A DNA stretch of 64,000 bases from Spinacia oleracea. Lineage: Eukaryota; Streptophyta; Magnoliopsida; Caryophyllales; Amaranthaceae. The notes below the pieces were generated by a model. That model had not been told where the DNA came from. It made no database searches and saw only the letters and a program-made list of their open reading frames with translations. Positions 3,639 to 64,000 of this stretch are shown here, one piece after another. Made by a program: the position numbers and the translations under genes. Numbering within the stretch: position 1 is the first letter of the stretch; every line of letters starts with the position of its first letter. Location: contig NC_079487.1 of NCBI RefSeq assembly GCF_020520425.1, forward strand, positions 129,044,385 to 129,108,384, given 5' to 3'.

Positions 3639-5323
<1,685 letters not shown>

Positions 5324-5438
5324 AATTGGTTTTTTTATGTTTTTTGGTTTGATTTTGTTTGGGAAATTCTAGTTTACTTGTGTTGTATGGAGAAGTGTAT
5401 GAATGTGTTGATGGATTCAGTAAGGAGAAGAGAGGAGG

Positions 5439-8384: not shown

Positions 8385-8392
8385 GCTGCCAT

Positions 8393-8940
8393 TAGACCTG
8401 TCAAAAATCGACCCGACCCGAAAACCGACCCGAACCCGACCCGAAAATACTGGGTCCTGAACAAGATTTTGTGACCCGTAACCCGATTTTATCCGAACCC
8501 GAGCAACCCGAAAAGTAATGGGTCAAAACCCGACCGAACCCGTTTTGGACCCGACCGATTGAAAATCGTTGTATTTATAGTAATAAATGCGATTATGAGA
8601 AAATTTAAGCATAATAAACACGCTGTTTTTACTATTATTGTGTGTAATATGATTTTAATTTGAACTATACGCCATTTTATGGTTGAATTTGACTAAATAT
8701 AAACTTATGTAGGAAAATTTGTTAATTTGTGCCCATATTTTGTATATTTATCACCTAAATTAATGAAAATATAATGCGCATTTTAAAATCTCTCAACCCG
8801 TTGGGTCGACCCGAACCCGAAAGTTCTGGGTCTTGAACAAGCATTTGTAAACCCGAACCCGAAAGTGACCGACCCGATCTAACCCGAACCCGAAAATAAT
8901 TTTTTACAATCCGACCCAACCGACCCGTTTGACAGGTCTA
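8393..8940. mobile_element. hAT-like MITE with GACCCG-rich ends (548 bp)
   Basis: The ends are TAGACCTGTCAAA and its perfect complement TTTGACAGGTCTA. A perfect 8-bp target duplication GCTGCCAT lies at 8385-8392 and 8941-8948. An 8-bp duplication with ends starting TAG fits the hAT superfamily. Both ends carry runs of CCCGACCCG/CCCGAACCCG (GGGTCGGG on the other strand), while the centre is AT-rich. No transposase reading frame is present. A second copy, in the opposite orientation and clearly homologous through the interior, is at 46780-47326. Confidence 0.9.
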
Positions 8941-26280: not shown

Positions 26281-26870
26281 GGGGAAAATTAGGTGGGAGT
26301 TAACTTGGTCATTCTATAGTGGGCCTATATGGCTATATGGGCCCTAAGGCCCAGTAATTATACATAAAATGAAAAATTCAAGTGTCGAACCAAACTTTCA
26401 CTTTTTTAGATCCACTCCAATAGCAGTGTAACTAAATTCGTCACATTAAATATTTAGTCACAATGCTTTTAAGTTACAAAGTTCGGAAATTTCATTAAAT
26501 GCCCTCGAGTTTTGCCATAATTCACCAAACGCCCATCAAGTTTCAATAATTCATAAAATACCCCTCACAATTCGTACAAATACTCAACATACCCTTTCTA
26601 ATAACGGGCCGTTAGTCCGCCGTTAGCCAAGTTTCCAATTCACCCAATTGCCCCTATTCTGAAACTTATTTCACCAAATGCCCCTATTATGAAACTTATT
26701 TCACCAAATGCTCCAAATTTAAATATAGCTATTCTGAATTTCCGACGGCTAGTTTTTGTGTTTGAAAACAGGTTCTTGGTCATGGTTGGCTATAAAACCC
26801 CTTTGCTGAATGGTTCTTGTATTTTAGATGTTATTTTACTTTACTTTGCTAATTTCATAAGATTTGTGTC

Positions 26871-26968
26871 ATGAGTTTTCTTTCAAAATCATCTTCCACA
26901 CCCAATGAGTCCACATATATTAGGGTACCTAACAAATTTTGTTATTGTGGTAGGAATGGAGGTTGAAG
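26871..26968 (+). pseudogene. 5' fragment of a GRF zinc-finger gene in the left arm
   Basis: From an ATG at 26871 the frame begins MSFLSKSSSTPNE and continues through VPNKFCYCGRNGG, then stops. FCYCG is the first half of a GRF-type zinc finger. It is the inverted counterpart of the start of the gene remnant at 27203-27599 and exists because the element's left arm duplicates that part. Confidence 0.7.
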
Positions 26969-27202: not shown

Positions 27203-27599
27203 TTACTTCATGATTACAAACAGTAAAATTACAAACATCAATATCCCCATTTGTATTACAACTTTGACTACTTTTTGTTGTTGTTTTAGCTTCTTCTTCA
27301 TTTACTTCAATTCTTCTTGCATCTTACTGTTTCACCTGTTTTCAATACTTTCTCCTTCGTCTAAGCTTCCCCCGCATTTTCCTTCGTGTTGTTGCCCCTT
27401 GTTTTCTTGCTCAACTACTCCCTTGCACCATCTCAGATTGTTTCAAGGATCACACTTGTAGTACAACCTTTGTGGATTGAGTGTTGTATCAGAGCTTCGA
27501 ATGACAAATTTCCTACCACAATAACAAAATTTGGTAGGTACTCTAATATATGTGGACTCGATCATTGGGTGTGGATGATGATTTTGAAAGAAAACTCAT
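27203..27599 (-). pseudogene. Broken GRF zinc-finger gene carried by the Mutator-like element
   Basis: On the minus strand, from an ATG at 27599, the reading starts MSFLSKSSST. It then shows KFCYCGRKFVIRSS and LNPQRLYYKCDP, the Cys-x-Cys and C-terminal Cys parts of a GRF zinc finger. A Lys/Gln-rich segment (KKKLKQQQKVV) and a hydrophobic end (MGILMFVILLFVIMK, probable membrane anchor) follow, ending at 27203. This GRF finger - coiled coil - membrane tail layout is frequent in plant repeats. Several in-frame stops interrupt the frame, so it is not functional as a whole protein. Confidence 0.75.
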
Positions 27600-28319
27600 G
27601 ACAAAAATCTTATGAAATTAGCAAAGCAAATCAAAATAACATCTAACTTACAAGAACCATTCAGCAAATGGGCTTTTATAGTCAACCGTGACCAACAGCT
27701 ACCTTTCAAACACAAAAACTAGTCGCTGAAACATCAAAATAGCTATATTTAAGTTTGGGGCATTTGGTGAAATAAGTTTCACAATAGGGGCATTTGGTGA
27801 AATAAGTTTCAGAATAGGGGCATTTGGGTGAATTGGAAACTTGGCTAACGGCAGACTAACGGTCCGTTATTAGTAAGGGTATGTTGGGTATTTGTACGAA
27901 TTGTGAGGGGTATTTTATGAATTATTGAAACTTGATGGGCGTTTGGTGAATTATGGCAAAACTTGGGGGCATTTCATGAAATATCCGTACAAAGTTTCCT
28001 ATTTGTTGAATACAATATCTTGTTGCTTCAACTCCTTATAATATTTTATTTAATATACAATTTTATTTATTTAACTTTTTTCGAGCTAGATGCGCAAAAG
28101 TACTAAAATATCTTCATAGCCGATTACGTAATTTTTGTATCAATGGTTGGCTATTGCTCATATTATTTTAACTTTTTACAAGCATGTCCTTTTGTATGAC
28201 CATTGTAGTTGCTCTCAGCTCCTTATAATATTGACTTTTGAATTTTGATACATTTAGTACCTATCTAATTTTTTTATATAAATTTTTCAAATCAATAATT
28301 GGACCTCTGGTAAAATTGG

Positions 28320-30379: not shown

Positions 30380-33300
30380 ATGGCACCTTTATTTCTGGGT
30401 TTATCTCTTCTATTTCTGCTTGCACCTTCGGTAAGTCATCTAATCCACCTTAATTTTATTGGTTGATCTTTTTAGTTTCCAAAATTTTCAATTATTAATG
30501 ATCAATCCTTTTATATTATGGTTGATTATACTTTTTTTTTGATGAAATTTTGTTATGTTTGCCTTATATTGATTGACCTGATCCACTTATCTTAAAGTTA
30601 TGATCACTAGTTATAAGTTTAATTGGTCAAATATAATTATTACCTATTTCAAGGATCTATTTAAGCATCTGATATTGTTATTCGGGTTGTGGATGCAAGC
30701 TAGCTTAGTTTGTAAAGTTTTGGAGTGTGTATCTAAGACATGGGATTAATCCGGTCTATGATCTGGATCTGTTGAACTTTTTTTTGAGGGAAGGATCTGT
30801 TGAACTTTGATAGTTAAGCTGATGTATTTATGAATTTCAGTTGTTTAATGTCTTGGATTTGTGGGAAGAACTGCTGAACTGGGAATGAATTAATATTTGG
30901 ATTATATGAATATTTTAAGTGAGAAGATTTAAGAAAAGTTCTTAATTTGTTTTTCAAATTCAATTTTTGATTTGAGCTTTTTGTATAGGTGGGGTGGGGC
31001 AGGATAACTGGGAGGTTTTGGTGTATTCAATAGTGGTGTTTTAAGAGTCAGTTAGCAAATTTGTCTTTTGGCAAACCCTTGTTTTATAAAGAATCTGGAC
31101 TTATCATAGTTTGTCTTGTGTTATTTTTTTTGGTGTATATGGATCCAGACAATGGTGTAGACGGCATTTGATTCTAAACTTTAACTAACTAACTAACTGA
31201 CTAAGCTAGTTGACATCCACACTGTTTTGCCGTGTAGATGGAGGGCTTCACTAAATTTTGTTGAGAATGTTATGGGTTTGATCTTTTGAGTTTAATTTCA
31301 CTTTTGACGTATGGTTTAGTCATTTGGAATTTGTAAGAAATATTTTGCTAGTGTTCAAAGGTGCAGATGTTTTGAGGCTGATTTTCGTGCTCCCATTTTT
31401 TTAACTGTTGTCTACTTTTATGAAGAGGGAAGTGTGGTACTAGATTCGTGTAGTCCCATAGTCCTACAACTATTTGAAGTTTTGAACTAAGTACTCATTA
31501 GCACTGAACATTGTGCTTTTTGAATCTAATAAAAGAGTAGGGTAATGGTAAACATCTAACATAGACATAAAGACTAATACTTAACATGCATTTAATGGCA
31601 CGAAACAACTAAATACCATATTTGGAATAACATTTAGTGAAACCAAAGGAGTCATGTAGACTGCACAGACAACCCTATGATTTTTCTGATGGTAATTGAA
31701 ACTGCTGAATGTTGAAATCAAATTTTACTACCTTTATTTTCTTAAGCATGCACAATTACATCCACGAGTTCATGAATGTTCCTAGCCACAAAACTACTTA
31801 TGCAAGCATAATAGGATTCTTCTTATTTTCTTTAGTGTGGCTGTTATTTAGTTCCCTCCTTTCTCTGCCACAACCTGAGTCATAACTCCTGAATGTATGG
31901 AAGTTTTGTTCTTTAATAGTCATGAAGTGGTAGAAAGTAGTATTTGATTTCTTACATCCAGAAGTTGCGTGTTATGCTTCTCAGTATATCAGCTTTTTTG
32001 TTATCTATTCCAATTTTTTACTCTGTGGATACATAATTGAAGTTATTTTCATTGTAGGTTTTAGTAGCAGAATCAGTTCCTGAGCTGAAGTTGAACTCCA
32101 ACCTTCTCCAGGTATACTTCTTGCTAGCTTGAGTTATGTATAACTAATGAGCCATCACTATACTGATCACATTTCACCTCCAAATTATTATTTCAGGACT
32201 CAATAGTTAATTCGATAAATGCAAATCCAAAGGCTGGATGGAAGGCTGGCATGAACCAGCAATTATCCGACTATACAGTGAGTTTTTAGCCGAATGTTCT
32301 CCTCCAGTTTTCTGATGAAAGCGAGACTTAATCTTGCATCTTTAATTTACTAGAATGTCACAATTTCACTGATATTTTTTATATTCTATTGTTAAGCTTG
32401 GTCAATTCAAGTACATCTTAGGTGCTAGACCTACCCCAGAAAGTGAGAAGAGGAGCATCCCTCTCGTGCATCATGACAGGTCGTTGAACTTGCCAAAGGA
32501 GTTCGATGCCAGAAAAGCCTGGCCTCAGTGTACCTCTATTGGCAGAATTCTTGGTAAGCCAAATGCTATGTCCTTCTTCCTCATGTTCTCAGTTCTTACC
32601 AATTATGCAATGGATAATCTAACTTTTTTTGTCTCCCTTTTCCTCTATCTTACATGGGGCCATTGCTAAATCTCATATTAAAGACCAGGTACTTGGCACT
32701 TTATCACATTCATTTGTTAAAATGTCGACTTTTCAAGCTCACTTAATTAATTGATCTTCTGCAATCTGTCAAATAGGGTCATTGTGGTTCTTGTTGGGCA
32801 TTTGCTGCTGTTGAAGCCCTTTCAGACCGTTTCTGCATCAATTATAGCATGGTAGTTCCCTCTCTACTTTTCGAATACTTCCATTGTATTTCCATTTTCC
32901 ACCCTTATTGAAATAAATCATAACACCCAGTTCATCCAAATACTTGTAGAACATCACGTTGTCAGTTAATGATCTCTTGGCATGCTGTGGATTCTTGTGT
33001 GGAGCTGGATGTGATGGCGGGACGCCCATCTATGCTTGGCGCTATTTCGTTCACCATGGTGTTGTCACGGAAGAAGTAAAAGATCTTTCTTTACCCCCAA
33101 GGACATATTTTTTTCAACCTTTTGTACTATACTCTCTTCATTTCTAAAAGTTGATTTGTGTTATTGATTTCTCTGTGACAGTGTGATCCATACTTCGACA
33201 CCACTGGTTGCTCCCACCCAGGTTGTGAGCCTGGTTACCCTACTCCAAAGTGTGTAAGGAAATGTGTGAGCGGAAACCAACTTTGGAGACAATCAAAGCA

Positions 33301-34037
33301 TTATGGTTCAAATGCCTACAGAGTCAAATCGGACCAATATCAGATCATGGCTGAACTCTACAAGAACGGACCTGTTGAGGTGGCTTTCGATGTTTATGAG
33401 GTAAAAGGACGGATTTCTGAATCATTCATATGCGTCATTTTGATGGATAGTAGTTTAATTCAGTAGCAGATCTAGAATTGAATCCTATAAATGAGCTGCA
33501 TTGGTGCCATGTATGTTTCTTTCGCGGTTTACACAATTCCAACGTTTTGGTATTCTTTTTTCAGGATTTTGCTCATTACAAGTCGGGGGTTTACAAACAT
33601 GTAACTGGGCAATACCTTGGAGGACACGCTGTGAAGCTGATTGGATGGGGAACTTCAGCTGACGGAGAGGATTATTGGGTACTTTTTTGTTACCTTTTTA
33701 GTATTTTCCCCTTTAGATTTATGAATCATATCTCAATTTTGGTGCCTGATTGCTAATTCACTATCATGTTTCACAGCTTTTAGCGAATCAGTGGAACAGA
33801 AGCTGGGGTGATGTATGTTTCTTCTCTCTAGTAACCTTATACAAGTATTAGATTATATGTTTATATGTTTGGGACTCAGAAATGTTTCGTTGATTATAAC
33901 AGGACGGATACTTCATGATCAGCCGGGGAACCAACGAATGTGGCATTGAAGAAGATGTGGTGGCTGGCTTGCCTTCACCCAAGAACATGTTCAAGGTGGT
34001 AACTGAATCAGATGATGCTGGTTCTGCCTCCATATAA
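30380..34037 (+). CDS. CATHB: Cathepsin B-like cysteine protease
   Basis: Eleven coding exons: 30380-30430, 32058-32111, 32197-32277, 32397-32553, 32684-32688 (5 nt), 32777-32851, 32950-33075, 33182-33400, 33565-33678, 33777-33812, 33903-34037. All GT-AG, in frame, 350 residues, the usual plant length. Signal peptide about 1-21, propeptide with [10 protein letters not shown], mature part from about [14 protein letters not shown]. Oxyanion Gln116 and catalytic Cys122 are in [11 protein letters not shown], His277 in [11 protein letters not shown], Asn298 in [10 protein letters not shown]. The [13 protein letters not shown] block and the cysteine-rich insert around [15 protein letters not shown] (occluding-loop region) identify cathepsin B. 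In plants these enzymes act in the secretory and lytic compartments and are linked to hypersensitive cell death and senescence (family knowledge). The 1.6-kb first intron is much the longest. Confidence 0.96.
32684..32688 (+). other. CATHB: 5-nt micro-exon of the cathepsin B-like gene
   Basis: The previous exon ends on one base (G) after ...GRIL and the next begins with GGT CAT TGT. The family invariably has Asp-Gln between them. The only bases in the 223-bp gap that supply these residues with AG before and GT after are ACCAG at 32684-32688 (ATTAAAG|ACCAG|GTACTT). G+AC encodes Asp and CAG encodes the oxyanion-hole Gln116. Confidence 0.85.
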
Positions 34038-46779: not shown

Positions 46780-47326
46780 TAGACCTGTCAAACGGGTCGG
46801 TCGGGTCGGGCTGTAAAAAATTATTTCGGGTTCGGGTTGAATCGGGTCGGTCACTTTCGGGTTCGGGTTTACAAATGCTTGTTCAAGACCCAGAACATTC
46901 GGGTTCGGGTCGACCCAACGGGTTGAGAGATTTTAAAACGCGCATTATATTTTCATTAATTTGGGTGCTAAAAATACACAATATGGGCCTAAATTAACAA
47001 ATTTTCCTACACAAGTTTATATTTAGTCAAACTCAACCATAAAATGACGTATAATTCAAATTAAAATCATATTACACACAAAAATAGTAAAAACAACGTG
47101 TTTATTATGCTTAAATTTTCTCATAATCTCATTTATTACTATAAATACAATGATTTTCAATCGGTCGGGTCTAAAACGGGTTCGGTCGGGTTTTGACCCA
47201 TTACTTTCCGGGTTGCTCGGGTTCGGATAAAATCGGGTTACGGGTCACAAAATCTTGTTCAGGACCCAGTATTTTCGGGTCGGGTTCGGGTCGGTTTTCG
47301 GGTCGGGTCCATTTTTGACAGGTTTA
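46780..47326. mobile_element. hAT-like MITE with GGGTCGGG-rich ends (547 bp)
   Basis: Starts TAGACCTGTCAAACGGGTCG and ends TTTTTGACAGGTTTA. The 8-bp duplication ATAACAAG is perfect (46772-46779, 47327-47334). It is the reverse complement of the element at 8393-8940 along its whole length, including the AT-rich centre (for example TTATGCTTAAATTTTCTCAT here). No transposase. Confidence 0.92.
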
Positions 47327-47334
47327 ATAACAAG

Positions 47335-48127
47335 TCACAAGTTTTAATCTTAGATCACAAACATAACACGGTCTGCCAAAGAATAACATGGCATCAAGGC
47401 GATAACCTCTCCTAAGAATATGTTAGACCTTTTGCCACTTCAAGATACATTCCTACACCCAAGAGAAAGATAAACTAAAAAGATCAACTCCAATAACACA
47501 CACACATCCTAACCTATTTTGCGAAGCAAAAGATCCGACAGAATTCAGAAATCATAATTAACCCCCTACACAGGTCAAAGACAAAGCTCAACTAAAACCC
47601 GTAACAACATGAATCATGTCTTTCATGAGCACCCCAAAGTTTATGTTCCTTTTCTTCTCTCTATTATACAAGACCCTGGGAGGCTAGGAGTCCACAACTA
47701 TTGCAAAGAGCATAGAACTATTTATCTTTTGCCGTATGTGCATTTACTATAATACCAAATTGCTCTTTCATTCTTAACTCAGTCAATAATCATCAGAACA
47801 ATAAATCAAAAGAAGATATGAGGTAGTGTTCTCTTCACCTATTTACTTATCTTGTTGCTATGAACTTATCTTAAAAGAAGTTATCTAATCTAAGCTTATT
47901 ACCTGAACTTGTCAACTCTTATCTTATCTTATTAGCCTTGAACTTACTAAGCCTATTGAAACTTACAAAATGTAACCTTCGTTTTTATTAACCCTTATCT
48001 AATCTAAACATCTTAGCCCTTATTTTATTTTATCTAAACTTATTAGCCCTTATTTTATTTTATCTAAACTTATTAGCTCTTATATTATCTTACATGAATT
48101 TATTAACCCTTATAATATCGAACTTGT
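47335..48127. other. Left flank of the repeat array
   Basis: No gene seen. From about 47830 the DNA consists of CTTATCTAATCTAAACTTATT-like words, including three tandem units of about 30 bp (about 48007-48112, around TTAGCCCTTATTTTATTTTA). These words resemble the inside of the Tourist element at 28615, so a worn Tourist copy is possible. Confidence 0.5.
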
Positions 48128-49925
48128 TAGTATTAACCATTAGGAAAAAATATCAATGTATTATTTAGTAAAAATAGTTTGATGAACTAAAAATCAGATT
48201 TATCTATAGAACTAACTTTAATCCATCAAAAGCTATCAATTGTTCCCCAATTACAATTTATTTCTCAACAATGTTCTCATTCAGTAAACAGTGTCTCATC
48301 ATTTAGACTCACAAATCCAACACAATGACAACCATACAAACATACCAAGCTTGGTTCCTTATATTACTCTCAATAGACCAAATGTTGATTCATTTAAACT
48401 AAATTTTACTCAAAGGTATGCTTTCAATATATCCATAAACCGCATAATAAATACAACCACTAAACCTCAAAAATCAAACTCTTCCGCCCCTTCAGGTGGG
48501 AAACTTAGACATCAAAAACTACCCTCACTTTATTGTCAAAATAACTTTCCTCTGTCACTCGACTCCGATCAGCACAATATATCCATAAGAACATCCAAGA
48601 TTATTCTCATTCGCTTCTAAAATAAAACTTCCCACAAAACACATCACAAAAACAGTCCTTAGCCCCCTAAAGAAAACTTTTCAATGCAAAAAGTTCTTTC
48701 GTTGGAACAACTTTCAAACAGTTGAATAAGAAACCGTAACTAAATAATCAATTTATTAGTAAAATCCTCAGATAATTCTACAAATTTCTATAACTAGTTC
48801 AAAAAGCAATCAAAGATTCCTAAATCAAAATTTGCTTGTCAATTAAACTATTCCACATTAGGTCAACACCTCTCATCGTTAAGATCCACAAATCAAACAC
48901 AGCGATAATTGATGTGGCACAAAAAGCCCTACATCAATAATCATCAAAACATAGTGAGCTTGGTTCCTTTATTAGTCCCAAAAGTTGAATAATAGTACAA
49001 AATCTTCAAATTTTATTTTAAGTATGCTTTCAATAAAAGACTTCCATAAACCGCATAATTAATACAACCACAAACTCCTCAAAATTTTCTCTTCCCTAAG
49101 AACACTTAGGCATAAAAAAATCCACTAGCTCTTGGTTGTCAAAATCACTTCCTCTCAATAACCATCGAACATCCAAGACTAGTCTCACTAAGCTTCCAAA
49201 ATTTTACTTTCCATAAACCACATAATAAACACTATCTCTAGGCCCACAAAAATAGTTGTTCACAGAATAAAGTTCTTTAGTTTAAAACTTTTTCAAACAA
49301 TTGGATAAGAAACCACTAGTAAAAAAATCTTTTTCCAAGTAAAATCAGTTTTAAGGACACTATCACAAACTTTAAGCCATCTAAATGAAGAATATTCCCT
49401 AATCATAGGTTATTTCTCAACAGAACAGTACGCAATGAAATAACTCTCATCATTAGGACCAAAAATTCCAACACAATGATAACAATTGAAAACATATATA
49501 ACTTGCTTCTTTGCGTTACTCCCAAAATATGCTCAAACTTAAACTAGGTCGTCACAAATTTACTTCAAGTATGCTTTCATTATAAGACTACCATAAACCG
49601 CATACATTGATACATAAATCCCAATAATATAACCACTAGAACCGCAAAAAAAATAGAATCTCTCTTCTCTTCACTAATAGAACATGGCTTCAAAACTTCC
49701 CTGCCATACATTATTGTAAAAATCACTTTCCTGCGACAGTAAAGATCAATCCTCTTAATAAAAACCATATAAGATTCAAACTAAGCCTTCACAAACTGAC
49801 TCCAAGTATGCTTTCCATATAAGATTCACCATAAACTACATAATAAATACAACCTCTTAAACCACAAAAAAAGAGCAGTCTCTTCAACTAAGGCATCAAA
49901 AACTCACCTACCACACTATGTTGTC

Positions 49926-50047
49926 AATCATTATCATTATCATTACCCCATTGCCTCAAAGAGGCTCCCGCAAGAAGCGGGGTAAGGAGGGTCGGACGTA
50001 TGCAACCTTACCCCTGCAATTGCAGAGAGGTTATTTTATAAGTCAAT
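49926..50047 (-). mobile_element. SINE inserted in the array (Au-like 3' body)
   Basis: A perfect 17-bp target duplication, TACCACACTATGTTGTC, flanks it (49909-49925, 50048-50064). On the minus strand it contains GGGGTAAGGTTGCATACGTC, CCCCGCTTCTTGCGGGAGCC and CTTTGAGGCAATGGGG, which resembles the body of the plant Au SINE. It ends in ATG/ATA trinucleotide repeats rather than oligo-A. The tRNA-like head appears to be missing, so it is probably a 5'-truncated copy. Confidence 0.85.
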
Positions 50048-50331
50048 TACCACACTATGTTGTCGAAATCACTTAAAAATATAATAACATTAAAAGTACA
50101 CCCACTACGCGTCCAAAGTAGAACTTTCCAAAAACCACATAATAAAAACTATCACTAGGACCTCAATATTAGCAATTGACTTATAAAATATCTACCGCCA
50201 AAACAAGTTTCTAACAATTAGATAGAATATCATTTTTTTATTTATTCTTTTTAAGGTAAAAATTAGTTCGTTGATAAAATAGTCATACGACATCTACAAT
50301 ACAAATCAAAACTAACAAATACTCCCTCCGT

Positions 50332-50634
50332 CCCTTAATACTCGCACAAACCGGTGCGGAGTTTAAGGCATTTGAATTGACTTGTTAATTTATGGGTGTT
50401 AGTTGATAGTGGGTATTTTTTTAATATAGTTAGTGGGAAATGTGTAAGAGGTGGAGAGTGGTGAATGGGGGTGTGAATTTTTAAATGATTTTTTGTAGGG
50501 AATAAGGGGTGTAGGTGAGGTTAGTAAGTAAGTGTGAGAAATAATATAATATTGGTATAAATTTCCATTGTGGTGCAAGTATTAAGGGACGACCCGAAAA
50601 GGAAAGCAGTGCGAGTATTAAGGGACGGAGGGAG
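50332..50634. mobile_element. Stowaway-type MITE inserted in the array
   Basis: The ends CTCCCTCCGTCCCTTAATAC (then TCGC) and GCGAGTATTAAGGGACGGAG (then GGAG) are inverted copies with no mismatch over about 24 bp. TA flanks both sides (50330-50331, 50635-50636). 303 bp, non-coding. Confidence 0.92.
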
Positions 50635-53600
50635 TACAAAACAATTTGGATCAAACAAAATTCTAATCCGTCAAAACCACTTGAATTCTGACCGATCTTT
50701 TGCTTCGCAAAATAGACTAATATCTGAATTCTGACTGATCTTTTGCCGCAAAATAGGTTATGGAATAAACCGCATAACATATAGTTACAGAGGTTTGTGC
50801 TATTATATCTGATTATTAGTTCTTATTACTGATTATACTAATAACTGATTCTCAATTGAACATTCCAGCATTGAGTCAACTCCAGTAACTAGTAATTACC
50901 CACAAATTACACACAATGATAACCATCAAAATAGAGTGACTTAGTTCCTTATATTACTTAAATTATACAGAGTACTAGGCCTTCCCAAAGTTACTCCAAG
51001 TACGCTTTCAACATAAGACTTTCCATAAACCGCGTAATATATACAACCCTAAAACCTCAAAATCAGACACACTCTTCCACTCAAAAGCTTAGGCATCATA
51101 AATTTCCTATGAGGCTACTATACAGATTTCAAAATCACTCACGTCAATCGTAAACATCGTTCCTCTCATTAATAACCATCTGAACATTCAAACCTTTTCT
51201 CCCAAGCTTCCAAACGAGCTTTCCATAAACCACATGATAAATACTATCTCTAGGCCTGTAAATTTGTTATTCACTTTGAAAAATTATTTGGTCAAAAAAA
51301 TTCAGACAGTTAGGTAAGAAACCATTAGTAAAAAAATCTCATTCTTAGAAAAATCAGTTTTAAGGACTCTACGTAACTTTAATACATCAAAATAATGTAA
51401 AATATTCTCTAATAATAGGGACTCTATAACTATCTTCAATCCATGAATATAAAGTAAAATATTCCCAAATAACAGGTTATCAGCCGAACAATCCCACTAA
51501 GTGTTAACAACTCTCATCATCAAGACCCAAAAATCAAACACAATGATGCCCATAAAAATATGGAGAACTTCGTTCCTAAAGGAACTCCTAAAGGCAGCTA
51601 AATTTATCACGCCTTCAAGAATTTATTCCATAATATAAGACTTCAAATAAACTGAATTACAAATACATCCCAATCGAACATCAAATAATAAGCACTCTTA
51701 ACACACTTGGTTGTCGACATTACCTTCTCTACATGTCAAAATCACTTTCCTCTACAGGTCAACATCGGTCATCTCAGTAATAACCATGAGAACATTCAAG
51801 ATAACTCCCACTAAGCTCCCACGAATGAAACTGTCCATAAACCACATAATCAACACAATCTCTAGGACCTCAAAAATAGTTACTCTTAAAGAATTCTTTA
51901 GTCAAAACATGTTTGAAGTAATCAAAAAAAGTAAACAATAGTTAAAACTTTATTAGTAAAGTTAGTTTTAGAACTATAGATCAGACTTAAATTTACGTAA
52001 TTATATACCTACCTACAAACCATTAGAAGGTAGTAAAATATTCTACTATCACATTTTAAATCTAAAATGACTAATCCCGCATCGAGTCAACTCCTTTAAT
52101 AAGTAAGACCCACACATCAAACACAACGATAACCATCTAAACATAGTGAATTGGTTCCTTATATTACTCAAAACATTGCTTAAATTAAAACTAGGCCTTC
52201 ACAAATTTACTCCAAGTACGCTTCAATATAAGACTTTCCAGAAACTGTGTCACAATTACAACTAAAACCTCGAAATCATACACCATATGCTTTATACTAA
52301 AATAGTTTAGACATCACAAACTTTCCTACGACACTGTTGACAAACTCAAACACCATTCCTCTCAATAGTAACCATCAGAACGTTCAAACTTTCTCTTACT
52401 AAGTTTCCAAAATAGAACTTTCCATAAACCAAATGATAAACAATATCTGTAGGACATCAAAAATAGCTATTCACTCGCAAAATTCAACAGTAAAAAGTCT
52501 CAAAGTAAATTTCAAACAGTTAGATAAGAAACCATTAATTTAAAATTTTCTTAGTAAAATCAGTGTTAAGGACTCTCTATACCTAACTTTAATCCATTAA
52601 AATGAAGACAAATAATCCCTAACCACAGGGTACTCTGAACAGAAAATTTCCATATTGAGTTAACAACTCCAATCATCAAGGTCCAAAAATCGAACACAAT
52701 GATAACCATGAAAACATAGTGAACTTTGTTCCTAAAACAATTCCCCAAAGCAGATAAATTTAAATTTAGCCCTCACAAACTTACCCCAAGTATGCTTCCA
52801 ATGTAAGACTTTCACCAAACTGTACAAATACATCTACTGGAACCTCAAATATAAAGCACTCTCATCTTAACTGAGAAAACTTAAGCATCAAAAACTCCAA
52901 TAACACACTTGGTTGTCTACGTCACTTTCCTTTCTACTACATCGATCCTCTAAATAGTAAGTTTATAACCATAAAAATATTCAAGATCACTCACTAAGTT
53001 TCCAAAACATAACTTTCCATAAACCACGTGACCAACACAATAGGACCTCAAAATTAGTTATGGTTTAAAGTTCTTTAGTCAAAAAAAGTTTCTAACACCC
53101 GGAAAAGTAACCATTAGTACAAAAATTCAGTTGGTTTTAAAACCAAAGAATCAGACTTATTATACACATTTCTACACCTACCTATAAACAATCAAAAGGT
53201 AATGAAATATTCTCCAATCACTATTCAGTTATCAATTGAACAATCCAGCATGGAGTCAACTCCATAGCTAGTGAGACCCACAAATCAAACTCAACGATAA
53301 CCATCAAAACAAAGTAGACTTGATTCCTTATATTATTCCAGGTGTTACTTCAATTATACAGAGTAATATGTCTTCATAAATTTACTCCAAGAACGCTTCA
53401 ATATAAGACTTTCCATAAACCGCATGATAAATACAACCACTGAAAACTCAAAATAACACACTTTGCTCTTCACTCAAAAGTTTAGGCATCATAAAGTTTC
53501 CGAAGAGGCTACGACAAACTGATGCATAAATCGATTACCTGAATCAGTAAAAACCATTCCTCTCAATAGTAACCATCTGAAAAATTCACGACTTCTCTCC

Positions 53601-56600
53601 CAAGCTTCCAAAAGACCTTTCAATAATCCACACGACAAATACCATCTCTAGGCCCGTAACATAACAATTAACCATGAAAAATTATTTAGTCAAAATAATT
53701 TAAAACAGTTGCATAAGAAACCATTAGCTAAACAATTTTGATCCTAGAAAAATCAGTTATAAGGACTCTATAACGAACTTTAATACATCAAAATCAAGTA
53801 ATTATCCCCTAATAACAGGTTCTCAACTGAACAATCCCACATTGTGTTCATAAATCTCATCATCAAAACCCTAAAATCAAACCCAATGATGCCCATAAAA
53901 ACACGTGAACTTTGTTCCTAAAACAACTCCCAAATGTAGCTAAATTTATCAAGCTTTCACGAATTTGCTCCAAGGATGCTTTAAATATAACACTGCAAAT
54001 AAACCGCATTACAAATACCTACACAAGGACCTCAAAAGCATTCTTCAGATAGCATAGGCATCATAGCGTCCACTTATGTTGTCGAAATTACCTTCCTCTA
54101 GAAGTCAAAATCACTTTCCTAAACAGGTCAACATCGGTCATCTCAGTAATGACCATGAGAACATTAAACATCACTCTCACTAAGCTTCAAGAATATAACT
54201 GTCCATAAACAAAATAATCAACCCAATCTCAAGGACCTCAAAATAGTTACGCTTACAGAATTCTTTAGTCAAAACAAGTTCTGAGAAGCCAGAGAAATAA
54301 CCAATAGTAAACATTTAAAAAAAAAACAGTTCGTTAGTGAAGTACTTTTAGGAACTACTGGTCAGATTTTCAATTTTACATACTTCTATACCTACCATAA
54401 ACCATCACAAGGTAGTGTTCTGCAATCACATTTTTAAATCTAAATCGACTAAACCTAAATCGAGACAACTCCTTTAATAAGTAAGACCCACACATCAAAC
54501 AGAATGAAAACCATCACAACAAAGTGAACTTGGTTCCTTATATTACTCCGAATATTGCTTAAATAAAGCTAGGCTTTCACAAAGGTACTCCAAGTACGCT
54601 TTCAATACAAGACTATCCAAAAACCGTATAATAATTAGCGATAAAACCTCAAAATCAAACACCTTATGCTTTACACTAAAATAATTTAGACATTGTTGTC
54701 AAACTCAATTAGCTAATTCAGTAAACACCATTCCTCTCAATAATATTACCATCAGGAAGGTTCTAAAATTTTCTCACCGAGTTTCCAAAATAGAACTTTC
54801 CATAAACCAAATGATAAAACAATATCTCTAGTACCGCAAAATAGCTATTCACTTAGAAAAAATTCATTAGTCAAAAGACCCAAAACAAATTTCGAACAGT
54901 TAGATAAGAAACCATTAATAAAAAACCATGCTAAGTAAAGTCAGTCTTAAGAACTCTCTATACCTACCTTCAATCTATTAAAATGAAGTCAAATAATCCC
55001 TAACCACAGGTTGTTCTCAACAGAACAATCCCACACTGAGTCAACAACTCCCATCATGAAAACATAGTGAACTTTGTTCCTAAAACAACTCCCAAAAGTA
55101 GCTAATTTGAATTTAACCTTCACAAATTTACTCCAAGTATGCTTCCAATATAAGACTTTCAACCGACCAAGTAACAGATACATCCACTGGAACCTCAAAA
55201 TTAGTGAAGTTAGTTTTCCGAACTCAAAGTTAGACTTAATTGTACATATTCCTGTACCTACCGATAAACCATCAAACGGTAGTCAAATGTTCTCCAATCA
55301 CAGTTCAAATCTAAATTGAATAATCCTGTACTGAGTCAACTTAGTTCCTCATACTGCTCATGTCGCTTAAATTAAACTGAGCCTCCACAAACTTACTCCA
55401 AGTATATTTTCAATATAAGTTTCCGAAAAACAGCGTAATAAATACAAACACAAAAAAAAACCTCAAAATCAAACACAATAGTCTCTTCACTCGAAAAAGG
55501 TAGGCATCAAAAACATTCCTACGACACAGTTGTCAAAATCACTTACCAACACCGTTCATCTCAATAATAACCATCTAACATTCAATATTTTTCTCACTGA
55601 GCTTCTGAAATAGAACTTCCCATAAACTACATGATAAATACCATCTCTAGGCCCCAAAAAGAGCAATTCTCTTGGAAAAATCATTAAGGCAGAAAATTTC
55701 AAACAATTAGATAAGAAACCATTAGTATAAATATTTGTTTCTTAGTAAAATTCAGTTCAAACTTCGAAGGACTCTACAACTATAATCCATCAAAATGAAG
55801 TAAAATGTCCCCGAGTCATATGTCATTCTCAACAAAACAATCCCACAATGAGTTGACAACTTTCATCATAAAGACCCAAAAATATCAAACGCAACGATAG
55901 CCATCAAAACACAGTGAAACTTGTTCCTAAAAATTTTCCCAAAAGTACCTAAACTTAGATCAAGCCTTCACGAATTTACTCCAAGTATGCTTTTAATATA
56001 AAGTTTCAACAAATCAAATTACAAATACGACCACTACAACTTCAAATACGCTAACATAACTTAGGAATCAAAAGCTCCACTACCACACTTGGTTGTCAAA
56101 CCAAGTTTCCTCTGCCGGTGGAAATCAATCCTCTCAACAAATAACGATCTCAGAACATTCAAGGCTACTCTCACTAAGCTTCCAAAATATAACTTTCTAT
56201 AAACCCCATACTCAACACAATATTTAAAACCTCAAAAGTAGCTAACTTCAAAAATTCTCAAGACAAAACAAGTTTCAAACAGTAATAAAAAAAAAACATT
56301 AGTACAAATTGACAGTTCCTTAGTAAAATCAGACTTAACTGCACATATTTCTATACCTCTATAAACCATCAAAAGGCAGTGAAATGTTCTCCCATCAAAA
56401 TTTAGTTCTCAATTGAACAATTCTGCATTAAGTCAACTCCTCTAATCAGTAAGACCACATATCAGACACAAAGATAACCATCAAAACATATGAACTTGGT
56501 CCCATATATAACTCTAAAAGTTGCTTAAATGAAACTAAGCCTTCATAAATTTACTCCAACTGCGCTTCCAACATAAGACTTCCATGAAGTGCATAATAAA

Positions 56601-59299
56601 TATAACCACTAAAACCTCAAAACCAAACACTCTCCTCCACCCAAGAGATTTAGGCATAAAAAAACCATTCCCACCAAAACGTTGTCAAAATCACTTTCAT
56701 CAATCAATAAACACTGTTCCACTCAATAATAACGATCAGAACATTCAAGACTTTCCCCACTAAGCTTTCAAAATAGAACTTCCCATAAACCACAAATAAA
56801 CACACTCTAAGATCACAAAATAGTTGTTCACTTAAAAAACTCTTTAGTCAAAACAAGTTTCAAACAATTAGCCCAGAAACTATTAGTAGAAAATCAGTTT
56901 TGTAAACTAAAAATAAGATTGAGTTGTACAAACTTCTATAACTACCTTTGAACCAACAAAAGGCAGTCAAATATTCTCAATTGTACAATCTCGAATAGAG
57001 TTAACCCTCCAACCACTAATACCCCAAATTCAAACACAATGATAAACAAACATATTGAACTTGGTTTCATGTATTACTCCATGTGTTGCCTAATTTAAAC
57101 TAAGCCTTCACAAACTTTACTTCAAATTATCTTTCGATATAAGAAACCGTATAAAAAATACAACCATTAGAACCACAAAAATATAAGAATCTCTTCTCTT
57201 CACTAAGAAGACTTTGATATCAAAAACTCCCTTACCACATTGTTGTCAAAATCACTTTCCTTTTGTCATTCAACATCGATCCTCTTAATAATAACCATCA
57301 ACACATTAAAGAGTCCTCTTGCTAAGCATCCAAAATAGAACTTTCCACAAACCAGTTAATAAAGACAATATTTAGGTCCTCAAAAATAGCTACTCACTAA
57401 TTATTCAGTCAAAACAAGTTTCAAACAGTTAGATAAGAACACATTAGTAAAATATCATTCTTAGTAAAATCATTTTTGAAAACTGAAAATAAGATTTTAT
57501 TGTAGAACACACTATAACCAATTTAAATCCAGAAAAAGGTAGCCAAAGATGGCCCAACCTCAGTTTATTTCTAAACATAACAATACCACGTTGACTTTAT
57601 CATTAAGACCCACATTGAAAACCATCTAGACATAGTGAATTCGGATCCTTGTATTACTTCCAGAAGTTGCTGAATTCAAATGAAGCCTTCACAAACAAAC
57701 TCCAAGTATGTTTTCCATATACAACTCTCCATGCACTGCGTAATAAATACAACCACTTATACCACAAAAATATAACAGTCTCTTCTATTAACTAAGAAAA
57801 CTAAGGCATCAAAAACTCCCTACCACACTTGTGTTGCTAAAATCCCTTTCCTCCGTTACTCAACATCGATCCTCTTAATAATATCCGTCAGAAAATTGAG
57901 AGCACTCCCACTACACTTCCTTGATAGAACTTTCCAAAAAGCACAAATAAATACTTCTATAACTACCTTTGAACAATAAATAGACAGTCAAATATTCTCG
58001 GATCACATCATCACAGTTCAATCCTCAATTGAGCAATCCCACATAGAGTTAACACCTTTAATCATTAAGACCCACAAATCAAACATAATGATAACCATGA
58101 ATACATATTGAACTTCGTTCCTTATATTACTCCAGATGTTGCTTTTTAATCTAAGCTTTCACATATTAACTTCAAGTATGCTTTCAATATAAGACCCTTT
58201 CTATAAAGGCGCATAATAAATCAACCACTTTCCTCTCTTCACTATGAAAACTTAGGCAACAAAAACTCCCCTAACACTGTTGTCGAAATCGCTTTCCTTC
58301 ATTACTCAAGATTGACCCACTCAATAACAACCATCAGAAAGTTCGAGATTACGCTCACTAAAATTCCAAAACAGAACATTCCATAAACTACATCATAAGC
58401 TCTATACCTAGGCCCTCAAAAGTAGCTATTGATATAACAAAAATCTTTAGTCAAATCAAGTTTCAAACAGTTAGATAAGAAACCATTAGTAAAAAAAAGT
58501 GTTTTTATAAGTAAAATCAGTTTAAGGGACTAAAAACCAGATTCAATTGTACGAATCTCTATAACAACCTTTAATCCATCGGAAAGAAATCAAATATTTT
58601 GCAAATCACAATTTATACCTCAACTGAGCAATCCCAGAGTCAGTCAGTCAAAACCTCTCATCATTAATACCTGTGAATCAAATTCAATGAAAACCACCAA
58701 AATGTACTGAACATTTTTACGGATATTACTCCAAAAAGATGCTGAATTTAAACTAAGCCTTAACAAAATTACTCAAAGTATGTTTCCAATATAAGATTTT
58801 CCATAAATCGCATAATAAATAACCACTAGAACCTCAAAAATAGGCACTCTTCTGTTCTATCCACTTAGAGAACTTAGACATCAGAAACTCCCCAATTACA
58901 CTTGCGTTGTCAAAATCATATTTTCTCCTTCGGCAGCACTGATCATCATTTAGACCCAAACAGCGAAACACAATGGACTAGAAACCCATAATCCTTCCAT
59001 CAATAACCATCTAAACATATTAACAAGATAACTCCTAGTACACTTCCAAAATAGAACTTTCCATAAACCACAACATAAACACTATCACTAAAACCTCAAA
59101 ATATTCACTTCAACAACAACAACATAAACTATTCAGCCAAAGCAAGTTTAAACATCAAGTTAAAAACCATTAGTATGATTTACAATTAAGACATCTTGGT
59201 TGAACCACACAACAAACTCCTAAAGCTAGAACCTCAATTACCTAACCTACTCTTACAGAAATATATAAGATCAAAAGCAGTAAGTCGACAAAAATGTAA

Positions 59300-62200
59300 G
59301 TGAACATCCAAAAAGTTATCCACTTGTAAACGAAACTCTCATCCATAATGATAACCATCAATACATATTGAACTTGGTTCCTACTCCAGATGTTGCTTTT
59401 TAAACTAAGCTTTCACATATTAACTTCAAGAATGCTTTCAATATAAGACCCTTTCCATAAACCGCATAATAAATCAACCACTTTCCTCTCTTCACTATGA
59501 AAACTTAGGCAACAAAAACTCCCCTAACACTGTTGTCGAAATCGCTTTCCTTCATTACTCAAGATTGACCCTCTCAATGATAACCATCAGAAAGTTCGAG
59601 ATTACGCTCACTAAAATTCCAAAACGGAACATTCCATAAACTACATAATAAACTCTATGCCTAGGCCCTCAAAAATAGCTATTCATATAATAAAAATATT
59701 TAGTCAAATCAAGTTTCGAACAGTTAGATAAGAAACCATTAGTAAAAAAAAAGTTTTTTTATAAGTAAAATCAGTTTTAGGGACTAAAAACCAGATTCAA
59801 GTCAAAACCTCTCGTCATTAATACCTAAAAATCAAATTCAATGATGACCGCCAAAATGATTACTCCAAAAAGATGCTGAATTTAAACTAAGGCTTAACAA
59901 AATTACTCAAAGTATGTTTCCAATATAACACTTTCCATAAATCGCATAATAAATAACCACTAGAACCTCAAAAATAGGCACTCTTCTGTTCTCTCCACTT
60001 AGAGAACTTAGACATCAGAAACTCCCCAATTACATTTGCGTTGTCAAAATCATATTTTCTCCTTCGGCAACACTGATCATCATTTAGACCCAAAATAACA
60101 CATGATGATAGCCAGCAAAACACAATGGACTTGGAACCCATAATCCTTCCATCAATAACCATCTAAACATATCTACAAGATCACTCCTAGTACACTTCCA
60201 AAATAGAACTTTCCAAAAACCACAACATAAACACTATCACTAAAACCTCAAAATATTCACTTCAACAACAACAACATAAACTATTCAGCCAAAGCAAGTT
60301 TAAACATTAAGTAACAAAACCATTAGTATGATTTACAATTAAAACTTCTTGGTTTGAACCGCACAACAAACTCCTAAAGCTAAAACCTAAATTAACTAAC
60401 CTACTCTTACGAAAAAATATAAGATCAAAAGCAGTAAGTCGACAAAAATGTAAGTGGACAACCAAAAAGTTATCCACTTGTAAACGAAACTCTCATCCAT
60501 AATGATAACCATCAATACATATTGAACATGGTTCCTAATAGTACTCCAGATGTTGCTTTTTAAACTAAGCTTTCACATATTAACTTCAAGCATGCTTTCA
60601 TTATAAGACCCTTTCCATAAACCGCATAATAAATCAACCACTTTCCTCTCTTCACTATGAAAACTTAGGCAACAAAAACTCCACTAATACTGTTGTCGAA
60701 ATCACTTTCCTTCATTACTCAAGATTGACCCTCTCACTAATAACCATCAGAAAGTTCGAGACTACGCTCACTAAAATTCAAAAACAAAACATTCCATAAC
60801 CTACATAATATACTCTATACCTAGGCCCTCAAAAATAGCTATTCATATAATAAAAATATTTAGTCAAATCAAGTTTCGAACAGTTAGATAAGAAACCATT
60901 AGTAAAAAGCAGTCTGTTTATAAGTAAAAACAGTTTTAGGGACTAAAATCAAGAATCAAGTCAAAACCTCTTGTCATTAATACCTAAAAATCAAATTCAA
61001 TGAAAACCGCCAAAATGTACTGAATTTTTTTACGGATATTACTCCAAAAAGATGCTGATTTTAAATTACTCAAAAGTATGTATCCAATATAAGACTTTCC
61101 ATAAATCGCATAATAAATAACCACTAGAACCTCAAAAATGGGCACTCTTCTGTCCTCTCCACTTCGAGAACTTAGACATCAGAAACTCCCCAATTACACT
61201 TGCGTTGTGAAAATCATACTTTCTCCTTCGGTAGCACTGATCATCATTTAGACCCCAAATAACACATGATGATAGCCAACATAACACAATGGACTTAGAA
61301 CCAATAATCCTTCCATCAACAACCATTTAAACATATTTACAAGATCACTCCTAATACACTTCCAAAAAGAACTTTTCATAAACCACAACATAAACACAAT
61401 CACTAAAACCTCAAAATATTCACTTCAATGCAAGTTTATTAGTTTAAACATTTTACAAAACCATTAGTATGATTTACAATTAAAACTTCTTGGTTGAACC
61501 GCACAACTAACTCCTAAAGCTAAAACCTCAATTACCTAAACTACTCTAACGTAAAAAATATAAGATCAAAAGCAGTAAGTCGACAAAAATGTAAGTGGAC
61601 ATCAAAAAATTTATCCACTTGTAAACGAAACTCTCATCTATAATGATAACCATCAATACATATTGAACTTGGTTCCTAATATTACTCCAGATGTTGCTTT
61701 TTAAACTAAGCTTTCACATATTAACTTCAAGAATGCTTTCAATATAAGACCCTTTCCATACACCGCATATATAAAAACTTAGGCAACAAAGACTCCCCTA
61801 ACATTGTTGTCGATGTCGCTTTCCTTCATTAATCAAGATTGACCCTCTCAATAATAACCATCAGAAAGTTCGAGATTACGCTCACTAAAATTCCAAATCA
61901 GAACATTCCATAAACTACATAATATACTCTATACCTAGGCCTTCAAAAATAGCTATTCATATATTAAAATCTTTAGTCAAATCAAGTTTCGAACAGTTAG
62001 ATAAGAAACCATTAGTAAAAAATAGTCTTTTTATCAGTAAAATCAGTTTTAGGGACTAAAACCAGATTCAAGTCAAAACCTCTCGTCATTAATACCTAAA
62101 AATCAAATTCAATGATAACCGCCAAAATGTACTGAATTTTTTTACGGATATTACTCCAAAAAGATGCTGAATTTAAACTAAGGCTTAACTAAATTACTCA

Positions 62201-64000
62201 AGGTATGTTTCCAGTATAAGACTTTCCATAAATCGCATAATAAATAACCACTAGAACCTCAAAAATACGCACTCTTCTGTTCTCTCCACTTAGAGAACTT
62301 AGACATCAGAAACTCCCCAATTACACTTGCGATGTCAAAATCATATTTTCTCCTTCGGTAGCACTGATCATCATTTAAACCAAAAATAACACATAATGAT
62401 AGCCTGCAAAACACAATGGACTTGGAACCCATAATCCTTCCATCAATAACCATCTAAACATATTTACATGATCTCTCCTAGTACACTTCCAAAATAGAAC
62501 TTTCCATAAACCACAACATAAACACTATCACAAAAACCTCAAAATATTCAATTCAACAACAACAACATAAACTATTCAACCAAAGCAAGTTTGAACATTA
62601 ACCATTAGTATGATTTACAATTAAAACTTCTTGGTTGAACCGCACAAGAAACTCCTAAAGCTGAAACCTCAATTACCTAACCTACTCTTACAAAAAATTA
62701 TAAGATCAAAATCAGTAAGTCGACAAAAATGTAAGTGGACATCCAAAAAGTTATCCACTTGTAAACAAAACTCTCATCCATAATGATAACCATCAATACA
62801 TATTGACCTTGGATCCTAATATTACTCCAGATGTTGCTTTTTAAACTAAGCTTTCACATATTAACTTCAAGCATGCTTTCAATATAAGACCCTTTCCATA
62901 AACCGCATAATAAATCAACCACTTTCCTCTCTTCACTATGAAAACTTAGGCAACAAAAACTCCACTAATACTGTTGTCGAAATCACTTTCCTTCATTACT
63001 CAAGATTGACCCTCTCAATAATAACCATCAGAAAGTTCGAGATTACGCTCACTAAAATTCAAAAACAAAACATTCCATAAACTACATAATATACTCTATA
63101 CCTAGGCCCTCAAAAATAGCTATTCATATAATAAAAATATTTAGTCAAATCAAGTTTCGAACAGTTAGATAAGAAACCATTAGTAAAAAGCAGTCTGTTT
63201 ATAAGTAAAATCAGTTTTAGGGACTAAAATCAAGAATCAAGTCAAAACCTCTTGTCATTAATACCTAAAAATCAAATTCAATGAAAACCGCCAAAATGTA
63301 CTGAATTTTTTTACGGATATTACTCCAAAAAGATGCTGAATTTAAATTACTCAAAAGTATGTTTCCAATATAAGACTTTCCATAAATCGCATAATAAATA
63401 ACCACTAGAACCTCAAAAATAGGCACTCTTCTGTCCTCTCCACTTCGAGAACTTAGACATCAGAAACTCCCCAATTAAACTTGCGTTGTCAAAATCATAC
63501 TTTCTCCTTCGGTAGCACTGATCATCATTTAGACCCCAAATAACACATGATGATAGCCAACATAACACAATGGACTTGGAACCAATAATCCTTCCATCAA
63601 CAACCATTTAAACATATTTACAAGATCACTCCTAATACACTTCCAAAAAGAACTTTTCATAAACCACAACATAAACACAATCACTAAAACCTCAAAATAT
63701 TCACTTCAAAGCAAGTTTAAACATTTTACAAAACCATTAGTATGATTTACAATTAAAACTTCTTGGTTGAACCGCACAACTAACTCCTAAAGCTAAAACC
63801 TCAATTACCTAAACTACTCTTACGAAAAAAATATAAGATCAAAAGCAGTAAGTCGACAAAAATGTAAGTGGACATCAAAAAATTTATCCACTTGTAAACG
63901 AAACTCTCATCTATAATGATAACCATCAATACATATTGAACTTGGTTCCTAATATTACTCCAGATGTTGCTTTTTAAACTAAGCGTTCACATATTAACTT
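59300..64000 (+). repeat. Higher-order repeat zone, 1.14-kb dimer and 2.28-kb tetramer
   Basis: The landmark AATGATAACCATCAATACAT occurs at 59347, 60501, 61642, 62782 and 63915 (steps 1154, 1141, 1140, 1133). Each step holds two diverged units, one with ATAAACCGCATAATAAATCA and one with ATAAATCGCATAATAAATAA, plus an extra block with AGTAAGTCGACAAAAATGTA. Alternate steps agree best: the 60.5-61.6 and 62.8-63.9 kb dimers share CTCTTGTCATTAATACC and CTCTCCACTTCGAGAAC, while the 59.3 and 61.6 kb dimers have CTCTCGTCATTAATACC and CTCTCCACTTAGAGAAC. The real period is therefore about 2.28 kb. Confidence 0.88.

Follow-up and report, generated by a model that had tools for sequence, protein, structure and literature searches.

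Probable left edge of a satellite block with older and younger copying rounds ordered from left to right

How does a higher-order repeat begin, and can the order in which its copies arose still be read? Satellite arrays are usually studied in their homogeneous middle, where this history has been erased. The stretch analysed here (64,000 nucleotides of spinach DNA, hereafter the window) ends inside a tandem-repeat block and contains its left edge, along which older and younger copying rounds are ordered from left to right. We give a probability of roughly 0.8 to the reading that the array is a non-coding satellite, seen here at its left edge, and that it grew through successive duplications of blocks of several units. 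The type of structure is already known; its growth layers are unusually clear in the present array.

Units, strand and coding potential

A unit profile, built from 12 array units and then iterated, gave 29 matches in the whole window (U1–U29; nhmmer, E values 3.9e-18 to 7.9e-137), all head to tail on the forward strand between 48131 and 63999, where the array is cut by the window end. The original prediction had placed the array at 48128–64000; the run to the window end held, and the start moved to 48131. At E values up to 0.01, the profile matched nothing outside the array or on the other strand of the window. Queried with a single dimer from the right (61660–62800), blastn also reached left-hand units, for example at about 49151–49358 (E = 2.8e-37). 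As had been predicted (about 570–600 bp, head to tail), 20 of the 29 units measured 520–620 bp, with a median of 581 bp; the remainder were mostly partial, and U20 reached 680 bp. The array thus shows the head-to-tail order of satellite DNA over 15.9 kb of one strand. It was absent from the Tandem Repeats Finder list, in which the longest reported period was 500 bp. Directly left of the array edge, four copies of a 30-bp AT-rich repeat (47995–48113) gave no match to the unit profile.

Also in line with expectation, the array was AT-rich (GC 0.30–0.34 per kb) and non-coding. GC skew lay between −0.30 and −0.48 in every one of the 29 units, whereas of 85 windows (570 bp each) taken outside the array 4 reached −0.3; this strand asymmetry was probably inherited from the founding unit. 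The longest stop-free run in the array was 113 codons, compared with a mean of 121 and a maximum of 218 in 50 shuffles, so that the array shows the lack of coding capacity characteristic of satellite DNA. A transcribed or coding tandem family, of genes or of RNAs, would sit well with the strong asymmetry of all units and with a conserved core of ~64 bp, but it is scarcely credible given the lack of coding potential, of tRNAs and of any Rfam match at the gathering score. We rejected a coding or RNA array, taking the single sub-threshold Rfam match (E = 0.72) as chance. An exact 24-base motif of the unit had no match in viral_contigs. Six motif strings from the unit did not occur in the literature text searched, which is weak evidence on the novelty of the sequence family, and the literature passages compared, which came from queries not keyed on unit size, contain no plant satellite unit of ~580 bp.

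Three layers and a gradient of identity

An identity matrix over the units (the 96-bp U5 left unscored) and a tree divided the array into three layers. The left layer (U1–U5; 48131–50224, forward strand) has no alternation of two types: U1–U4 are 69–71% identical to one another, and U5 is a 96-bp remnant. The middle layer (U6–U17; 50840–57345, forward strand) alternates between two types, midE (U6, U8, U10, U12, U14 and U16) and midO (U7, U9, U11, U13 and U15), as predicted; among U6–U16, pairs of the same type are 72–85% identical and those of opposite types 62–70%. U17 and U18 are both transitional, U18 standing between the middle and right layers.

The right layer (58084–63999, forward strand), delimited by the identity matrix, the tree and junction scans, is a dimeric higher-order repeat of ~1140 bp with types RE (U19, U21, U23, U25, U27 and U29) and RO (U20, U22, U24, U26 and U28). 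Within U20–U29, units of the same type are 88–99% identical, units of opposite type 57–65% and adjacent units 60–65%, that is, diverged units within a block and near-identical blocks, as a higher-order repeat is defined. U19, whose left part is old, is for that reason 77–80% like the full RE units. On these identities, the array can be described as a layered higher-order-repeat satellite with the dimer as its repeated block.

The predicted left-to-right gradient of homogeneity was recovered at the level of the dimer. Mean identity at lag 2 was 0.733 in the left half and 0.862 in the right, a significant rise (rho = 0.70, p = 8e-5, n = 25 pairs), and each unit's identity to its closest counterpart anywhere in the array rose as well (rho = 0.78, p = 9e-7, n = 28 units). 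Identity at lag 1, by contrast, fell (rho = −0.52, p = 0.006, n = 26). The right-hand units had been called almost uniform; this proved wrong, since single neighbours never become uniform and it is the two-unit block that does. Mean K2P distance was 0.38 in L, 0.29 within the middle types, 0.08 within RO and 0.014 among U24–U28. At assumed substitution rates of 6.5e-9 to 1.3e-8, these values correspond to ages of about 15–29, 11–23, 3–6 and 0.5–1.1 million years, respectively.

Left-hand units were not only diverged but, as predicted, interrupted. U4 holds a 122-bp insertion (49926–50047) flanked by an exact 17-bp target duplication (49909–49925 and 50048–50064), the mark of a short retroelement; the insertion is SINE-like, more specifically Au-SINE-like. 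Between U5 and U6 lies a 317-bp Stowaway-like MITE (50320–50636), whose terminal inverted repeats, 28 bp long and without a mismatch, end in TA; the element has an 80% relative at 73–359 of the window. Both recognised insertions fall in the old part of the array, and unit lengths and gaps across the array gave no sign of a further insertion of such size.

Blocks, markers and the order of amplification

The tree of 28 units agreed with the identity matrix: midE, midO, RE and RO each formed one side of a branch (bootstrap 99–100), and the same four splits returned with columns 290–607 alone (bootstrap 100 each). Within types, sister pairs four units apart were recovered in the middle layer (U6+U10, U7+U11, U8+U12 and U9+U13) and in the right layer (U23+U27, U24+U28 and U25+U29), all starred in the 28-unit tree. 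In the tree from columns 290–607, U7+U11, U8+U12 and U24+U28 were again starred, U9+U13 and U23+U27 were weaker, and U6+U10 and U25+U29 were not recovered; U22+U26 were not sisters in either tree. U6–U9 and U10–U13 thus appear paired as by a four-unit duplication, and the commonest lag between 52 and 56 kb was 2378 bp. The four-unit block of the right layer measures ~2281 bp. Identity at lag 2281, taken per 100-bp bin, stepped up from 94–98% (bins 59700 to 60500) to 98–100% (bins 60600 to 61600), which places the left limit of the youngest duplication of this size at 60541–60601 (forward strand). As the sister pairs sit in separate clades, the middle and right four-unit events are separate. 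Two such events are few, and the alternation would survive a block of any even size.

Descent of the right dimer from the middle dimer, with RE from midE and RO from midO, is compatible with the tree. Grouping RE with midO (p = 0.005) or RO with midE (p = 0.035) was rejected and grouping RE with midE (p = 0.415) or RO with midO (p = 0.152) was not, these p values being soft because the groups were named after seeing a tree. One grouping is unexplained by a simple layer scheme: U4 (49774–50128) and U18 (57346–57934) cluster despite a distance of 7.5 kb and different layers, with support of 97/98 in the 28-unit tree and 84/91 in the tree from columns 290–607.

Polarity comes from indel-like markers, which we read as nested rightwards. 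A non-satellite segment of 158 bp is present in U21 (59176–59333, forward strand), U23 (60329–60487), U25 (61470–61628), U27 (62611–62766) and U29 (63743–63901), with scores of 276–295 out of 316, and in none of the 24 other units (16–27), U4 and U5 lacking that part of the unit. It resembled neither the satellite consensuses (best score 29, null maximum 35) nor the rest of the window beyond chance. Most of unit columns 140–255 are lost in U22, U24, U26 and U28 and retained in U20, and a stretch near unit position 50 is shortened in both U25 and U29. U19 switches at ~58084 from old-type to RE-type sequence: per 50 columns, it is 33–62% identical to U21 before this point and 92–100% beyond it. 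The right part of U19 together with U20 (58084–59061, forward strand) therefore forms an edge dimer that lacks two derived markers of later units of the same types and, because those derived states are found only to its right, would retain the ancestral ones. A further marker, the RO b-insert, is a segment of ~75 bp in the second half of RO units. In sequence it is close to part of the first half of the general unit (80% over 61 bp; score 62, null maximum 32), not to RO's own first half (score 18). It occurs in all five RO units, partially in U20 (76 of 150) and at 125–150 in the others, and in 0 of 21 further units with sequence there (12–25; U5, U13 and U29 left out). That the right layer's derived markers are absent from its edge dimer and present further in is as expected if new blocks were added inside the array. 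Older, insertion-bearing layers thus lie outside younger ones, with nested derived markers, on the one side of the array that the window covers.

The confinement of the 158-bp segment to one unit type might instead recall tandem repeats of a transposon, such as the internal tandem region of a retrotransposon or a Helitron. We consider this highly improbable: no stop-free run exceeds what shuffles give, no unit copy lies elsewhere in the window, and neither coding domains nor terminal structures spanning the units were recognised in the array, the only terminal structures being those of the two small insertions.

The ~580-bp unit of the array is itself the product of an old internal duplication with later deletions, as homology between its halves over a 74-bp core indicates (score 78 in the consensus; null mean 22.6, maximum 40; reached by 0 of 2000 shuffles). 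Both 'CCATAAACCRCATAATAAA' boxes of the unit fall within this core. Tested singly, 8 of 20 units beat all 200 of their own shuffles and 12 did not; in an earlier self-similarity test (60 shuffles each), all shuffles scored below the overall, E and RO consensuses, which was not so for the L, O and RE consensuses. The one quarter pair tested for deeper subdivision gave no signal (22, against a null mean of 19.5 and maximum of 34). Conservation across units was highest at consensus positions 340–403 (~64 bp, mean 0.80), where the top 21-base mean of 0.852 exceeded the 95% limit from permutations (0.774); this may reflect either selection or recent exchange.

Three junctions between units are irregular. 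At U3/U4 (49774–49779, forward strand; junction scan with the correspondence between halves), unit position 559 is joined to 336. As these two positions nearly correspond between the halves, the junction is a probable out-of-register exchange between the two internal sub-repeats. The junctions at U13/U14 (55201–55248, forward strand; 432 to 151) and U18/U19 (57934–57945, forward strand; 594 to 145) do not fit such an exchange, which thus explains one of the three.

Block amplification accounts for the layers, most of the junctions, the nested markers and the insertions. An ancient sub-repeat with a core of ~74 bp, still visible as homology between the halves, was duplicated to give the ~580-bp unit, presumably as the first step. 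Units diverged into two types, whose pairs became the repeated block of ~1150 bp observed here, and four-unit blocks were duplicated in the middle and right layers, as the sister pairs and the 2281-bp lag show. The machinery was most likely out-of-register homologous exchange between sister chromatids, or else circles of two or four units that were excised and re-inserted. With amplification centred to the right, inside the array, the edge would escape exchange, gather mutations and mobile-element insertions, and persist as fossil layers. A satellite caught at its edge, with homogenisation active towards its right, had been proposed from the outset; the measurements fit this proposal and the nested markers give the polarity, with the amendment that homogenisation acts on dimers and tetramers, not on single units.

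A more specific scheme would have the array grow by repeated doubling, from about half a unit to ~580, ~1150 and ~2300 bp, the middle and right layers each taking the four-unit step on their own. Excised circles in fixed size classes would be re-used as templates, and exchanges would favour the conserved core. Such a preference is suggested by block limits at RE-unit offsets of ~280 and 327–387 and by the sub-repeat join at 559/336; as a whole, the scheme strikes us as quite improbable. If general, it would make array edges a readable record of doubling, not of random unequal exchange.

Genomic setting and known satellites

How far the array extends bears on what kind of repeat it is. As the window includes neither a right edge nor a homogeneous core, the right layer may span no more than a few kb. 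A small local tandem duplication in gene-bearing DNA, of about 29 units and little more rightwards and no genome-wide satellite, is a conceivable, somewhat unlikely alternative. Frames with Pfam support do share the same 64 kb. Among 26 stop-free frames compared with Pfam, 8 matched, all between 0.3 and 37 kb of the window: methionine sulfoxide reductase, papain-type protease (4 frames, two places), WD40, LRR and an alpha/beta hydrolase, the last weak and below the curated cut-off; 10 frames of 76–89 amino acids between 40 and 47 kb had no Pfam match. Clear methylation-driven decay is likewise lacking, although CHG-type contexts are somewhat depleted. Speaking against a local duplication, blocks were amplified here in two or more rounds and the youngest of them lies at the window end, which suggests that the array is still active rightwards.

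Three features of the surroundings stand apart from the array. Papain-type cysteine protease genes or fragments lie ~28 kb apart in opposite orientation (3642–5368, reverse strand; 33179–33753, forward strand). An inverted pair of 550 bp (8391–8940 and 46780–47328; 95% identical, ~38 kb apart) probably represents two copies of a recent mobile element. A second inverted pair of ~475 bp (26484–26956 and 27510–27987; 91% identical, ~550 bp apart), whose two members each contain 30-bp tandem repeats, may form the long inverted termini of a single element.

Evidence in the sequence for methylation or heterochromatin is mixed. Observed-to-expected ratios in the array were flank-like for CpG (0.57 versus 0.62) and CAG (0.99 versus 1.00) and lower for CTG (0.79 versus 0.93), CCG (0.63 versus 0.87) and CGG (0.62 versus 0.81); no excess of TG or CA was seen in the array. 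Transitions were fewer in the array than in six control repeat pairs (205/409 versus 71/119, p = 0.08), and those of the right layer were also below the controls (40/89, p = 0.049). Differences between right-layer copies (58382–63999) are rich in transversions (49 of 89 singletons), and in the 2281-lag block right of 60541 transversions make up 12 of 15 substitutions, which are small numbers.

A centromeric or pericentromeric satellite, in which the array would be a centromere flank and a homogeneous core beyond 64000 would bind CENH3, appears clearly unlikely. The array starts ~14 kb from the protease exons, the nearest Pfam match above cut-off, and ~11 kb from the weakly matching hydrolase exon. 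Within the array, the AA/TT signal is strongest at a period of 8.8 bp (power 6.6, against 2.7–5.7 in five shuffles), with no nucleosome-scale periodicity near 10 bp; the left flank peaks at 10.0. The array holds no CENP-B-like site: three one-mismatch matches occur in the window, all outside the array, where 3.33 are expected by chance. To our knowledge, however, plants need no such site. In favour of a centromeric setting, the layering resembles that of primate alphoid arrays as given in the relevant passage of PMC8122249, monomers here being ~63% identical and blocks up to 99%.

The edge of a satellite that grew by block duplication remains our preferred reading. Within 16 kb of a gene-bearing window, the array preserves three age layers together with their junctions and nested indel-like markers, so that the order of amplification is open to reconstruction and to testing in related plants. 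This makes the array a good model for the beginnings of higher-order repeats, the kind of element not being new.

Caryophyllales satellites, as far as the passages compared describe them, are set apart by length. Spinach Spsat1–3 measure ~52, 365 and 325 bp (PMC6337768), 15 spinach and beet families 21–358 bp (PMC7840529), an amaranth satellite 169 bp (PMC5577786) and carnation satellites 510 and 32 bp, the 510-bp monomer coming from a higher-order-repeat region (PMC10788775). No unit of ~580 bp is among those described there, a distinction by reported length and not by sequence; the 510-bp carnation monomer comes close in size and, in that description, likewise occurs in a higher-order-repeat setting. 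VicTR-A of Vicia has a unit of 69 bp whose dimer and tetramer multiples are preferred in extrachromosomal circles; its authors, in the passage compared, suggest a transition to higher-order periodicity (PMC2543021). The present array shares the dimer and tetramer multiples and differs in its ~580-bp unit.

Like alpha satellite, in which older diverged monomers adjoin younger blocks, the array combines diverged monomers within near-identical blocks, dimer blocks and old beside young. Unlike it, the array has a unit of ~580 bp with an internal duplication and no CENP-B-like site, and we claim no relation by sequence. According to the passage compared, primate alpha satellite has a 171-bp monomer, with monomers ~70% alike within a block and adjacent blocks up to 97–100% alike; dimer blocks exist, and Smith's unequal crossing-over serves as the general model (PMC8122249). 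CentBd and CentBs of Brachypodium centromeres are described, in the part of PMC10910784 compared, as showing layered expansion, higher-order repeats and less similar units near retrotransposon insertions; those arrays are CENH3-enriched. With CentBd and CentBs the present array shares higher-order repeats, blocks that read as layered expansion and less similar units near insertions.
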